This document shows positions 35,782 through 42,766 of a stretch of DNA of 64,000 nucleotides, piece by piece. Both the position numbers and the translations under genes were made by a program. Numbering within the stretch: the first letter of the stretch is position 1; every line of letters starts with the position of its first letter. This DNA comes from Arcanobacterium haemolyticum (GTDB lineage: Bacteria; Actinomycetota; Actinomycetes; Actinomycetales; Actinomycetaceae). The stretch is taken from the NCBI GenBank assembly GCA_021532125.1, contig JADYUX010000002.1, positions 186,001-250,000 on the forward strand, read 5' to 3'. Under the pieces are notes generated by a model that saw only the letters and a list, made by a program, of their open reading frames with translations, did not search any database and was not told the DNA's origin.

Positions 35782-38082
35782 CTACAACGAAGCAGTGGCT
35801 CGTACGTATCTCGCCGCATCAACGAGATTCTGAAGGCTCGCGAGAGTCTCAGGATATGCGCGGGTCTTGAGCCCGCAATCGGGGTTAATCCACAGCCTGT
35901 CTGCGGGGATCGTACGAACAGCAGCGACGATAAGATCTGTCAGCTCGCCAGTGGTGGGAACTCGTGGAGAGTGGATATCCCACACACCTGGCCCAACTCC
36001 GCGCTCAAAGCCGTGCTCCGAGAGTTCAGGAAGAAGTTCCATACGCGAACGTGCGGCCTCAATCGAGGTGACGTCGGCATCGAGGGCCTCAATCGCGTCG
36101 AGAATCTGGCCGAACTCGGAGTAACACAAATGCGTATGGATCTGTGTTTCGGGGCGTACGCCCGATGTTGCTAATCGGAATGACCCAACAGACCAGGCGA
36201 CGTACTCGTCGTGCCGATCTGCATCGAGAGGAAGTAACTCCCGCAGGGCTGGTTCATCCACTTGGATGATCTGAGTTCCGGCGGCTTCAAGGTCGGAAAC
36301 CTCATCACGCAACGCTAGCGCAATTTGATCGGCCGAGGCTGAAAGCGGGAGGTCATTGCGGGGGAACGACCAAGCGAGAATAGTCACGGGGCCAGTGAGC
36401 ATCCCCTTGACGTGCTTCGTCGTTAACGACTGAGCAAATCTCGTCCATTCGACGGTCACTGCTTCGGGGCGGCTCACGTCGCCCCACTGGATTGATGGCC
36501 GGGTGCACCGAGAGCCGTATGACTGTACCCACCCGTGGCGTGTAGCAGCGAAACCGTCAAAGGCCTCAGCGAAATACTGCACCATGTCGTTGCGCTCCGC
36601 CTCGCCGTGGACGAGGACATCAATGCCAAGATCCTCTTGAAGACGAATCACGCGAGTAATTTCCTCTTTAATTCTCGCGGTGTAATCCGCTTTTGAGAGC
36701 GCTTCACGTGAGAATTGCGCGCGAACCTGGCGAATGTCTGGAGTTTGGGGGAAGGAGCCAATGGTTGTGGTGGGCAGCAACGGTAAGTCTAGTTTCTGAT
36801 CCTGGAGAGCTTTTCGCTCGGCGGAGGAGATCCTCAGACGGTCGCCGTCACGGAGTCCTGCAACGCGGGAACGGACGTCGTCGCGCACAACGCCGGGCGA
36901 ACTCTGACGTGAGCGAAGAATCTCGCTGACATGGCGAACGTCGTCGGCAATAGTCTCCCACCCATGAAGGAGTCCTTGACCCAGCGTGACGACCTCGTTC
37001 ACCTTTTGGTCAGCGAAAGCGAGCCACGAATGGAGAAGTGAATCGAGCTCGGGGTCATCCCATGTTTCTAGCGCCGTATCGTGAGGGACATGCTGGAGAG
37101 AATTCGTCGTCGCAACACTAAGTTCTCGTGCCCCTAATACACGTGCCTCATCAACTGTGTGTATTGCCTGCGCGAGATCGCTTCGCCACACATTCCGGCC
37201 ATCGACGATGCCGAGGGTGAGGATCGTAGATTCGAGCCCTGGGATGGGCGTCGCGGGAAGATCACCACGGCCAAGGTCGAGATGAAGCGCCTCAATTGAG
37301 GTCGAGGCAAGCGCCGAGATTCCCGCGCTCCCATCCCCGTAAGGAAGTGTGACAAAGAGAGCCGGGCGATCTTTGAGCTCCGAGAGTTGAGCCCACGCCT
37401 CACGTGCATACGTTGCAAGGCTTTCGCGGCTCACAGCGAGGTTATCCGTGACGAGTGCCGGTTCATCAAATTGAATCCATGAGATTCCGGCGCTTGCCGC
37501 ATCTTTGAGAAGCTCAACGTACGCGTTGAGAACGTCGTCGAGGCGTTCAAGGGGCGACCAGCCTTCGGGCGAGTTGACGCTACCCTTCGAGAGTGCGAGG
37601 TACGTGACCGGGCCGACGAGTACTGGCCGCGTGACATAACCCCATTCTCGAGCCTTCAACCACTTGTCGACGACGGATCGGCATGCGTAAGAAATTGGGG
37701 TATCCGGGCCAATCTCGGGAACAAGGTAGTGGTAATTGGTGTCAAACCACTTCGTCATTTCCAGAGGCGGCGTATCCGATGTGCCACGGGCGAGAGCAAA
37801 ATAGTCGTTCTTTGGGAATCGTGGCGGAATTGCTCCGAGAAGGACTGTGACGTCGAGGACGTGATCGTAGAGCGTCGATGCGTCGGGTATCGACGAGTCA
37901 GTTGCTCCAAGTCCCAATTCGGTCAGCCGGGCAAACGTTGCCCGACGAAGCTGCTCGCTCGCCTCGTCAAGCTCGCGCCTCGTTGTGCGGCCTGCCCAGT
38001 GGGATTCAAGTGCTCGTTTCAGTTCGCGATTTCGGCCAATTCGTGGATAGCCGAGGATCGTGGCGGACGGGAATGATGTCAT
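35782..38082 (-). CDS. metE: Cobalamin-independent methionine synthase
   Basis: A 766-residue enzyme that transfers the methyl group of 5-methyltetrahydropteroyl-polyglutamate to homocysteine. The N-terminal domain opens [20 protein letters not shown]. The C-terminal catalytic domain shows [45 protein letters not shown] and the zinc site: His and Cys in [11 protein letters not shown], the Glu of [10 protein letters not shown], and Cys in [14 protein letters not shown] start at the ATG of [16 protein letters not shown]; upstream ATG codons give a tail unlike the family. It lies 217 bases downstream of metF, which makes its methyl donor. Confidence 0.96.
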
Positions 38083-38299: not shown

Positions 38300-39232
38300 T
38301 TACGACGAGGCCTGAAGCTCGGAAAAGTCCCTCAGGATATCGAGAGCAGGGCCTGACTTGTTGAAGGTGTAGACGTGGACGCCGGGCGCGCCCGCGTCGA
38401 GGACACGACGGACGATCTGTCTGCCGTGCGCGATCCCTCGGCTGTAGGCATCTTCCTCTGATGACGCTCGCGCAAGATCATCGAGGATATGCCGGGGTGC
38501 GGACACACCCGTGAGGTCAGCGACTCGGTGGAGACGGGTCGGTTCGGTGGGAGGCAAGACCCCAGCCATGATGGGGATTGTGACTCCGTATCGCCGTGCG
38601 TTCTCGACGAACTCGATATACACGTCTGGCTCGTAAAAGAGCTGAGTGATAGCGAAGCTCGCCCCAGCCGCTTGCTTGACGAGGAGGCGCTCAATTTCCT
38701 GTTGAGGGCTCGTGCCGGCGGCGGGATTTCCAGATGGGAAAGCTGCCACTGCTATCGATAAGGGCTTAAACGCTGCCCGTAAGGCTGCGCCGGGTTGGCG
38801 CTCCTTGCGTTGTTCCTCGATGCCGCGGATAAGTGTGACCAGTTCCGTCGCAGATGCCACGTCGTCGCGCCCAGGGGACCACTCCGGTTGGTCAGCGGGT
38901 GGGTCGCCGCGCAAGGCGAGGAACGTGCGGACACCTGCATTGAGGTAATCATCGATCACATGCGCAACCTTGCTACGGTCTTCGCCTACGCACGTGAGAT
39001 GTGCGATCGGCTGAATGGGCGTATCACGGACGAGTTCACGGACGACGTGGCGCGCTGTGGACTTGTCTTTACCGCCAGCTCCGTACGTGACCGAGAGGAA
39101 ATCTGGGTCGGCATCAAGGAGTCTCCTGACCGTATTCCAAAATGCCGGCGCCGCAGTAGGCGAGCGAGGTGGCATAACCTCGAAGGAAAGAGTGCGTAGG
39201 CACCGATTCTGTGACGTGGGGTTAGCTTTCAT
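38300..39232 (-). CDS. metF: Methylenetetrahydrofolate reductase
   Basis: A 310-residue flavoprotein that reduces 5,10-methylene-THF to 5-methyl-THF for MetE. Signatures: LSFEVMPPRSPTAAP near residue 15, DFLSVTYGAGGKDKSTARHV near 43, PIAHLTCVGEDRSKV, FLALRGDPP near 103, AGASFAITQLFYEPDVYIEF near 185 and IMAGVLPPTEPTRLHRVADL. The chosen ATG (39232) lies inside a short upstream ORF that ends 11 bases past it, and no clear Shine-Dalgarno of its own is seen, so translation is probably coupled. Downstream is metE. Confidence 0.94.
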   Translation of the reverse strand: MKANPTSQNRCLRTLSFEVMPPRSPTAAPAFWNTVRRLLDADPDFLSVTYGAGGKDKSTARHVVRELVRDTPIQPIAHLTCVGEDRSKVAHVIDDYLNAGVRTFLALRGDPPADQPEWSPGRDDVASATELVTLIRGIEEQRKERQPGAALRAAFKPLSIAVAAFPSGNPAAGTSPQQEIERLLVKQAAGASFAITQLFYEPDVYIEFVENARRYGVTIPIMAGVLPPTEPTRLHRVADLTGVSAPRHILDDLARASSEEDAYSRGIAHGRQIVRRVLDAGAPGVHVYTFNKSGPALDILRDFSELQASS

Positions 39233-39350
39233 CGCGCACCGCCAGGATGAGCGGTGCGCCCTCCTTGTTGCGCATGTCGGCAATCATCTGGCGCATTCGG
39301 GTTTCCCCTGGAGAGATGAAACGGGCGTGGGGATCAGCGCTGATCAGCAT
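39222..39350 (-). CDS. Short upstream ORF (42 aa) overlapping the metF start
   Basis: A 42-codon frame with an excellent ribosome site (CAGGAGG, 8 bases before the ATG). It opens MLISADPHARFISPGETRMR and contains four Met among 42 residues. Its TAA stop lies within the first codons of metF, giving an 11-base overlap in another frame. Codons 2-6 contain a perfect 14-base palindrome, GATCAGCGCTGATC (39332-39345). It may be a coupling or leader peptide controlling metF, or a genuine small protein; I know no homologue. Confidence 0.6.
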   Translation of the reverse strand: MLISADPHARFISPGETRMRQMIADMRNKEGAPLILAVRDES

Positions 39351-39562
39351 GGGCGTTTCCTCCTGATACATGGGATTGTTGCTATGGATGCGTGGTGGTA
39401 GTGAGGCAGATGTACCTGCCGTGGTTGTCTCTCGTGGGTTGTCGAGCGTACGCGCTCGGATATAGAAGGCTACTTTTATTGCGTTGAGCCCAGCAAGATA
39501 GGGATTGTTTAATCGTGGTGAGTGAACGACGATGTTGGTGAACGCGCGGTGTGGCGTGGTTG

Positions 39563-39594
39563 CTGGGTGGGCGGCTGTGACACCGCCCACCCAG
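39563..39594 (-). terminator. Terminator after metQ
   Basis: Perfect 12-bp stem CTGGGTGGGCGG/CCGCCCACCCAG with an 8-base loop, 6 bases past the metQ stop codon on the minus strand. Confidence 0.8.
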
Positions 39595-42193: not shown

Positions 42194-42201
42194 GTCTCTC
42201 C

Positions 42202-42282
42202 TCCATCGATCGTGGCGGTAGCACCCGGGAACCTGGTTGCTGCAGCTTCGACGAGCCACGTCTCTCTGCTGCTCTAGATGAA
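42202..42282 (-). promoter_or_regulatory. SAM-I (S-box) riboswitch of metNIQ
   Basis: On the minus strand, P1 UUCAUC (42282-42277) pairs with GAUGGA (42207-42202). Then come the S-box elements in order: AGAG, P2 strand GCAGC, the kink-turn-like GAGAGACGUGGCUCGUCGAA, P2 strand GCUGC, AGCAACC and the P3/P4 block GGUGCUACC. UGG of the P2 loop can form the pseudoknot with CCA after AGCAACC. The 3' side of P1 overlaps the metN Shine-Dalgarno (GGAGGAG), so SAM binding would block translation. This is established S-box logic; the assignment was made by eye. Confidence 0.8.
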
Positions 42283-42766
42283 CAGCCCTAGCAAACCACG
42301 AATCGGGTAGGTATTCCAAGTTGACCGGAGTGTGAGATGGCACCCGATTTCCTGTCAGTCATGTGGGGTGGGGGCGTGGGTTGGCGCCAACGGGTGTCTT
42401 ATGCAGCTCATTTGGCGCTCTATGGCGTCCAATGAGCCGTAGAGCGAATCGGCACGAGAAGATGAGGTGCCGTGAGGATATCTCAAGGAATGAGATGTTG
42501 TGTGACCTGCACCACCGTCCCCAATCTGTCGCCCACCGCCGTTTAAATGAGCCTATCGAACAAAATTGCGATGTGGAGGAATGACATGGAGTGCAACGTT
42601 GTGTTCTTGCGGGATGTCCACGCCGTTGTTCTTGATGAACCTGCGGCCCTCGAGGAGGAACTCGGATCGACGGAATGGTGATCGCGTAGCCTACGCCAAG
42701 ATACCGAGCATGGAGATTCAACTGTGATAGGTGGTGGTCATTGCTGTCAGCGGCCTGATCATTCGT
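42283..42766. other. Gap between metN leader and the DtxR-type gene, no firm gene
   Basis: About 480 bases. A plus-strand 44-codon frame at 42547-42681 (start MSLSNKIAMWRND) and a minus-strand fragment reading FLLEGRRFIKNNGVDIPQEH up to a stop are the only notable frames. Neither matches a family I know; they may be remnants. The metN promoter must lie at the left part, just above 42282. Confidence 0.35.

Follow-up and report, generated by a model that had tools for sequence, protein, structure and literature searches.

Comparison of the regions upstream of metF across a bacterial family points to a conserved leader peptide in front of the methionine genes metF and metE. In the stretch of DNA that was analysed here (64,000 nucleotides, hereafter the window), an upstream open reading frame (uORF) encoding a leader peptide of 42 aa was found on the minus strand at 39222..39350, where it overlaps metF by 11 nt. 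With a probability of about 0.5, this uORF is the local form of a leader peptide that would control metF-metE in cis and sense the methionine supply; the position at which ribosomes pause on it probably adjusts how much methionine is made. As judged from sequence, the Arg-Met leader of metF is a feature of nine genera of the family. The comparison brings out its conservation, an invariant codon and its gene context, from which we infer that methionine would be sensed through ribosome pausing.

Arg-Met leaders upstream of metF

The metF gene was located in 130 of the 213 genomes of the window's family, and the upstream regions of 69 metF loci were read, namely the 47 best by MetF score (L011-L057) and 22 from the remaining 83 genomes, this divergent set being L058-L080 without L070, in which metF was not found. 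All 47 loci most similar in MetF to the window, representing nine genera, carry a short upstream ORF with a CGA-AUG unit that encodes Arg-Met. The leader typically ends in R-A-R-M-C-S-stop, as exemplified by MNARTNTTRRMCGSIRARMCS, MLERMSGLGGLVGSIRSRMCS, MTIKRAPSTAKRGSARARMPR and MKTSAHDVHPVQGFALRARMRMRMCN, and in 43 of the 47 loci the stop codon lies at most six residues past the Arg-Met unit. The leaders were found by a search for CGAATG, and as every one of the 47 loci was positive, none was lost through use of another codon. The same leader was found in none of the 22 more divergent metF loci of the family and in none of the 23 loci of the sister family f8; a stray CGAATG does stand in an open frame in L078, which lacks an ATG and runs on for 13 codons to its stop.

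In 27 of the 45 distinct leaders, the first CGA-AUG unit places its Met at residue 19; a single unit is present in 38 and two or three units in the other seven, and Cys follows the last Arg-Met in 27, the residues that precede Arg-Met varying widely between genera. Ahead of the chosen ATG, 42 of 47 leaders have a -10-like box of A and T whose end is 6-7 nt away, against 8.5% at other positions, with the qualification that some leaders have several possible ATGs and that the choice among them was guided partly by length and by the box itself; this pattern is suggestive, and only suggestive, of a leaderless mRNA for most leaders. The core of the peptide is constant within one sub-group of g27, a genus in which two codons vary silently and four change the residue, and insertions or deletions are confined to the region past the coding part. 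The g27 leader is thus not simply under synonymous change.

Additionally, an extended pattern, CGNGCNCGAATGTGC, was listed at 60 places in the 213 genomes, 30 of which were read as loci: in five of them the frame ends four codons on, in every case before metF, and in 25 it ends at least nine codons later. Around position 1500 of L142, an ORF ending in VRARMCARFAPS overlaps a downstream ORF by 4 nt and is possibly a further leader, possibly a chance occurrence. In L148 and L149, a 12-residue open frame, HRARMCVRNGRD, stands 28 nt before the largest downstream open frame found. When a leader profile (A4) was applied across the order, 8 of 396 genomes matched at E <=0.01, all of them from the same family, the match in G128 (L257) being no more than a candidate leader; this profile misses the window's own uORF, so its empty answers are weak.

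Gene context and the SAM riboswitch

The gene next after metF is metE in all 54 loci checked (L011-L040 and L081-L104), which comprise 30 leader loci and 24 others, L102 among the latter being one more leader genome. None of the 47 leader loci carries a SAM riboswitch before metF above the Rfam gathering score. Such a riboswitch precedes metF in 10 of the 22 divergent loci of the family and in all 10 that were scanned of the 23 sister-family loci, which gives 20 of 32 scanned loci without the leader. On the evidence of these scans, the leader is located in the place where relatives carry a SAM riboswitch on metF.

On the minus strand of the window, the order is a SAM-I riboswitch, metN-, metI- and metQ-like ORFs, the uORF, metF and metE. 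Among these genes only metF was identified by a library scan, metN, metI, metQ and metE being named from sequence. The metF gene (38300..39232, minus strand), which codes for methylenetetrahydrofolate reductase, matches PF02219 with E 2.8e-66 and also TIGR00676, the latter under the curated cut-off of the model. Its start at 39232 is supported by the MetF N-termini of the three nearest relatives with a uORF (G094, G093 and G059), which begin at about the same place. Its downstream partner metE occupies 35782..38082 on the minus strand, with a start chosen by the analyst. The SAM-I riboswitch (42200..42284, minus strand; RF00162, 50.7 bits) is the sole match to this model found in the genome. 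It precedes the metNIQ-like genes and not metF, so that adjacent operons may each be served by a methionine sensor of a different kind. Directly after metQ, an inverted repeat, CTGGGTGGGCGG...CCGCCCACCCAG, was observed at 39563-39594 without a T run; it could be a terminator that separates metNIQ from the uORF-metF unit.

The CGA-AUG unit and the proposed sensing step

The last Arg-Met is written CGA-AUG in all 45 distinct leaders. CGA accounts for 14 of the 102 Arg codons in leaders that do not stand before Met, and for 68 of the 740 Arg codons of metF; other Arg codons occur in 14 of the 69 Arg-Met pairs within leaders, all of them upstream of the last pair. The first CGA is constant, whereas the Ala codon that it follows is not (GCG 18, GCC 11, GCA 3, GCT 1). 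In the window genome, the tRNA-Arg anticodons are ACG, CCG, CCT and TCT, and TCG is absent among all 47 tRNAs above the Rfam cut-off; with no TCG anticodon among them, the reading of CGA should depend on inosine wobble (I34). The I34-A pairing is described as inefficient in the accessible part of one report (PMC3711424), so that an AUG that follows CGA could be sensitive.

According to the mechanism that we favour, a shortage of Met-tRNA would cause ribosomes on the leader to slow or stop at the AUG of the Arg-Met unit, this AUG being sensitive since the preceding CGA is read by inosine wobble, and the paused ribosome would alter the accessibility of the downstream gene or its transcription. 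For most genera, the leader concerned is a short ORF of ~19-26 codons, apparently leaderless, with its end directly behind the Arg-Met unit. A more specific version can be offered only tentatively: CGA-AUG would be a hungry codon pair, in which acceptance of the next tRNA is delayed by an inosine-adenine wobble pair in the P site, so that one AUG suffices to sense charged Met-tRNA, and the leader would have replaced the SAM riboswitch on metFE in a bacterial family and, in one genus, would also serve a regulator gene. Two features argue against an attenuator reading: 38 of 45 leaders have a single unit, where classical attenuators have Trp or Cys codons in runs, and the 14 upstream Arg-Met pairs mentioned above do without CGA.

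The single unit would be in keeping with a sensor that is the peptide rather than tRNA charging, in which case a nascent chain ending in R-x-R-M would stall the ribosome with SAM or methionine. Such an arrest peptide would also agree with the near-fixed distance from the start to Arg-Met (Met19 in 27 of 45), with the R-A-R-M-C core that many leaders retain through varied Ala codons, and with the presence of the leader where relatives keep a SAM sensor. However, a peptide-level sensor leaves the strict use of CGA unexplained, and the residues before Arg-Met differ widely among genera, which makes this explanation unlikely, if still the best placed of the alternatives to pausing for want of Met-tRNA.

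The uORF of the window and its nearest relatives

The product of the window uORF, as given by the ORF translation, is MLISADPHARFISPGETRMRQMIADMRNKEGAPLILAVRDES, with TAA as stop codon. The preliminary description of this DNA was accurate in reporting a 42-codon ORF (minus strand, 39350..39222) with a strong ribosome site, AGGAGG at 39359..39364 (minus strand), 8 nt 5' of its ATG, with four Met codons (residues 1, 19, 22 and 26) and with an end 11 nt inside metF, whose ATG is at 39232. The codon pair conserved in 47 of 47 leader loci corresponds to Arg18-Met19 (39294..39299, minus strand); it stands 23 residues before the end of the peptide and is followed by Arg (R-M-R). The codons from Met22 to Met26 occupy 39273..39287 on the minus strand. 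Pfam and NCBIfam profile scans gave no match for the window uORF, an NCBIfam scan gave none for seven other leaders, and an Rfam scan at the uORF revealed no riboswitch or other RNA, permissive settings included.

Within the genus, metF was found in three of four genomes. The uORF is kept in two genomes of the same genus, G094 (MSNNTFTDSIRFTIAGDCRMSSPMISMRTQEGAPPCSAVRSEQ, overlapping metF by 11 nt) and G093 (MNICGTFWSGLPLAIQPGTRMPFTMMAKEGTAACEAVVR, overlap of 4 nt), and in one of a neighbouring genus, G059 (MIIENASRPRPDRVGTQLAARMHMMMQEVAPLKAVRR, overlap of 4 nt). All three retain CGAATG and have further Met codons at about the place of Met22 to Met26. The uORFs of the window and G094 are 47% identical over 32 residues, and the corresponding MetF proteins 75%. 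At the place of the ribosome site, G094 has AAGGAGGAAACGCAC, and G093 and G059 have none there; the window and G094 uORFs, with their AGGAGG, show no -10-like box at the ATG. Weak uORF matches in L002-L004 and L006-L010 (E 0.007-0.09) do not adjoin metF and were set aside as chance.

Because it is conserved in relatives, the ORF is more than a chance reading frame, and because the three nearest relatives keep it before metF together with its Met codons and the overlap, the earlier suggestion that metF is coupled to the uORF and that methionine is sensed is a reasonable one. No sign of the folate-linked signal that was also suggested came to light in these comparisons. Two points of that suggestion had to be modified. 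The Met codons are indeed kept in the relatives, but the key feature appears to be, rather than these four codons, one CGA-AUG unit, which is shared with the non-overlapping leaders of seven further genera. The 14-base palindrome at the start of the uORF does exist (39332-39345), but it is missing at this place from the three relatives, and the window contains five perfect 14-bp palindromes against ~4 expected by simple arithmetic (64000/4^7), which leads us to regard it as a chance occurrence with no role. Overlap of the leader with metF was found in only four of the 47 loci, which form the window lineage, and on this distribution it is a local elaboration of the wider leader class.

Ribosome site and RNA folding ahead of metF

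It had been stated that metF lacks a ribosome site of its own. A complete lack was not borne out, since AAGGAGG is found inside the uORF at 39260..39266 (minus strand), 27 nt from the metF ATG, as a candidate distant ribosome site, and AGGAGG is present 25-28 nt before metF in all four lineage members (the window, G094, G093 and G059). Between this site and the ATG, a 10-bp hairpin is predicted at 39234..39259 on the minus strand (-20.9 kcal/mol, z -2.8), filling nearly all of the 27 nt spacer; a strong hairpin is also predicted in G094 and G059 and is absent from the predicted structure of G093. In this lineage, the leader may have been lengthened, through the internal AGGAGG and the hairpin, into the metF start. 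Ribosomes could then arrive at metF in either of two ways, by terminating on the uORF and reinitiating or by binding the internal AGGAGG directly, in which case the hairpin would bring AGGAGG near the metF AUG.

These features could also be read as plain translational coupling, in which the uORF has no sensing function and serves solely to bring ribosomes to a metF start that is hard to access. The overlaps of 11, 11, 4 and 4 nt in the four lineage members and the distant ribosome site of metF agree with such an arrangement, and folding predicts the metF start codon to be mostly paired in the window and G059 (unpaired 0.05 and 0.24) and partly so in G094 and G093 (0.64 and 0.50). Yet 43 of the 47 leaders do not overlap metF and keep the Arg-Met unit all the same, and coupling without sensing is for this reason improbable.

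Folding was also considered as a route by which a ribosome on the leader could act. In the minimum-energy structure of the window, UUUCAUCUCUCC (39310..39321, minus strand) is the predicted partner both of the internal AGGAGG and of GAUGAAA at the metF start, a pairing that is one of many near-equal structures and does not occur in those of G093 and G059. In the free RNA, the internal AGGAGG is predicted to be mostly paired (unpaired 0.24, 0.32, 0.03 and 0.14 in the four lineage members). The idea that ribosomes at the Met codons free this site was rejected: the first high values came largely from mask overlap, those at the last Met codons and at the uORF stop reflecting partly or wholly a mask that covers the site itself. 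With the mask off AGGAGG, ribosomes at Met codons free it no more than ribosomes at other codons, the unpaired values being 0.70 and 0.49 against a mean of 0.50 at other codons in the window, 0.32 and 0.65 against 0.36 in G094, 0.02 against 0.22 in G093, and 0.63 against 0.39 in G059.

Across 42 of the 47 loci, a ribosome placed at Arg-Met had no general effect in freeing the metF start (unpaired 0.46 in free RNA, 0.47 masked and 0.50 with a control mask); no general anti-ribosome-site switch at the metF leader emerged from this folding. A test of 42 loci for a general hairpin where the metF leaders end was not significant (p = 0.19). The least probable explanation is that CGAATG acts as a nucleotide motif, either a binding site in RNA or DNA or part of an RNA structure, with an incidental reading frame, since its invariance and its repetition, as two or three exact copies in tandem in seven of 45 leaders, must be set against an upstream ATG that shares its frame in all 47 loci, the stop within six residues in 43, the variable Ala codon before it, the lack of a common structure in the folding tests of 42 loci, and the finding that the five of 30 CGNGCNCGAATGTGC loci with an end four codons on all precede metF, the other 25 running on for at least nine codons.

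A second Arg-Met-Cys leader in front of a regulator gene

A second type of leader, MTAFVNDMCRPMCGDMRARMCM and its relatives, was found with the leader profile in genus g27 (L172-L175, L177-L179, L216, L217, L219-L223, L225, L226, L233 and L235). It precedes a stand-alone winged-helix regulator (Trans_reg_C, PF00486; two scanned), and its coordinates often put it 3.4-4.7 kb past the metF start, compatible with a position directly behind metE. In the window, inspection of the ORFs of at least 100 aa, rather than a profile scan, revealed no regulator of the Trans_reg_C type near metE. Two leaders of the second type stand in tandem before one regulator gene in G166 (L172:327-594), the second copy being ...QCRPVCGDERARMCM.

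A 9-bp hairpin begins right at the stop codon of this second leader. Its covariation was assessed in 14 of the 18 regulator-leader rows, cut by hand with near-identical ones omitted: 95.0% of cells are paired, against 87.2% in shuffles, and four pairs changed on both sides. On four of five measures, 0 of 500 shuffles scored as high, and on the fifth, the number of pair types, 7 did. Slid versions of the hairpin reached at most 53.8% paired, a comparison in which the tested hairpin is favoured because it was read off the same 14 sequences. A ribosome paused on Arg-Met would cover the 5' arm of this hairpin, and, within what sequence comparison can offer, the stop-codon hairpin is the best structural evidence that the leader class may work via ribosome position.

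Comparison with known systems

Riboswitches, T-boxes or repressors are the usual explanation for the control of methionine genes in bacteria. Work by Canestrari from 2020 is said to have described leaderless polycysteine short ORFs in mycobacteria, the regulatory codons of which control a sulfur amino acid operon. These mycobacterial ORFs contain runs of Cys, whereas the metF leaders mostly have one Arg-Met pair and no shared alternative structure was found among them. As for what would be looked for in an attenuator, a conserved short ORF precedes metF in 47 of 47 loci, metE comes next in 54 of 54 checked, and the Met after the last CGA is invariant and at most six residues from the stop in 43 of 47.

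The nearest printed relative of the metF leader, within the accessible portions of the literature, is metL of Streptomyces lividans, a leaderless leader peptide before metNIQ, MSTTSDRTPATEATTTPGARCMCRRMCAF, that ends in RRMCAF (PMC8079986, Table 4). As far as that portion of the paper goes, metL is a leaderless short ORF before a methionine gene, with Arg-Met-Cys near the stop and no typical terminator reported (PMC8079986), and most metF leaders, apparently leaderless, resemble it. They differ in that metL serves an import gene and is described there for a single species, with no conserved Arg-Met unit or CGA stated in the same portion (PMC8079986). When the metF leaders are compared with the metL type, Cys follows the last R-M in 27 of 45, and the window uORF has R-M-R and a ribosome site with no -10-like box. 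Because of the metL leader, Met-Cys leader peptides are not wholly new (PMC8079986). The literature search found no earlier report of the metF Arg-Met leader, most subscription papers being outside its coverage, and the accessible part of a survey by Seliverstov in 2005 gives no conserved RNA element before the methionine operons of Actinobacteria (PMC1262725).

In Corynebacterium, a conserved uORF enriched in codons for the end product precedes the amino acid biosynthesis gene ilvB-II, according to the sections available of PMC10272879. It resembles the metF leader in its conservation among actinobacteria and in its place ahead of a gene for amino acid biosynthesis, and it differs, in those sections, in its proposed transcription attenuation, its branched-chain codons and its pathway (PMC10272879). 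The SAM-I riboswitch (RF00162), in turn, shares gene and place with the metF leader in 10 of 10 scanned sister-family loci, but the metF leader is instead an ORF. If the reading proposed here is true, these genes would be a clear case in which one sensor, the SAM riboswitch, has given way to another, a leader peptide, and the constant CGA codon would provide a direct handle on whether codon context tunes a ribosome-based sensor.
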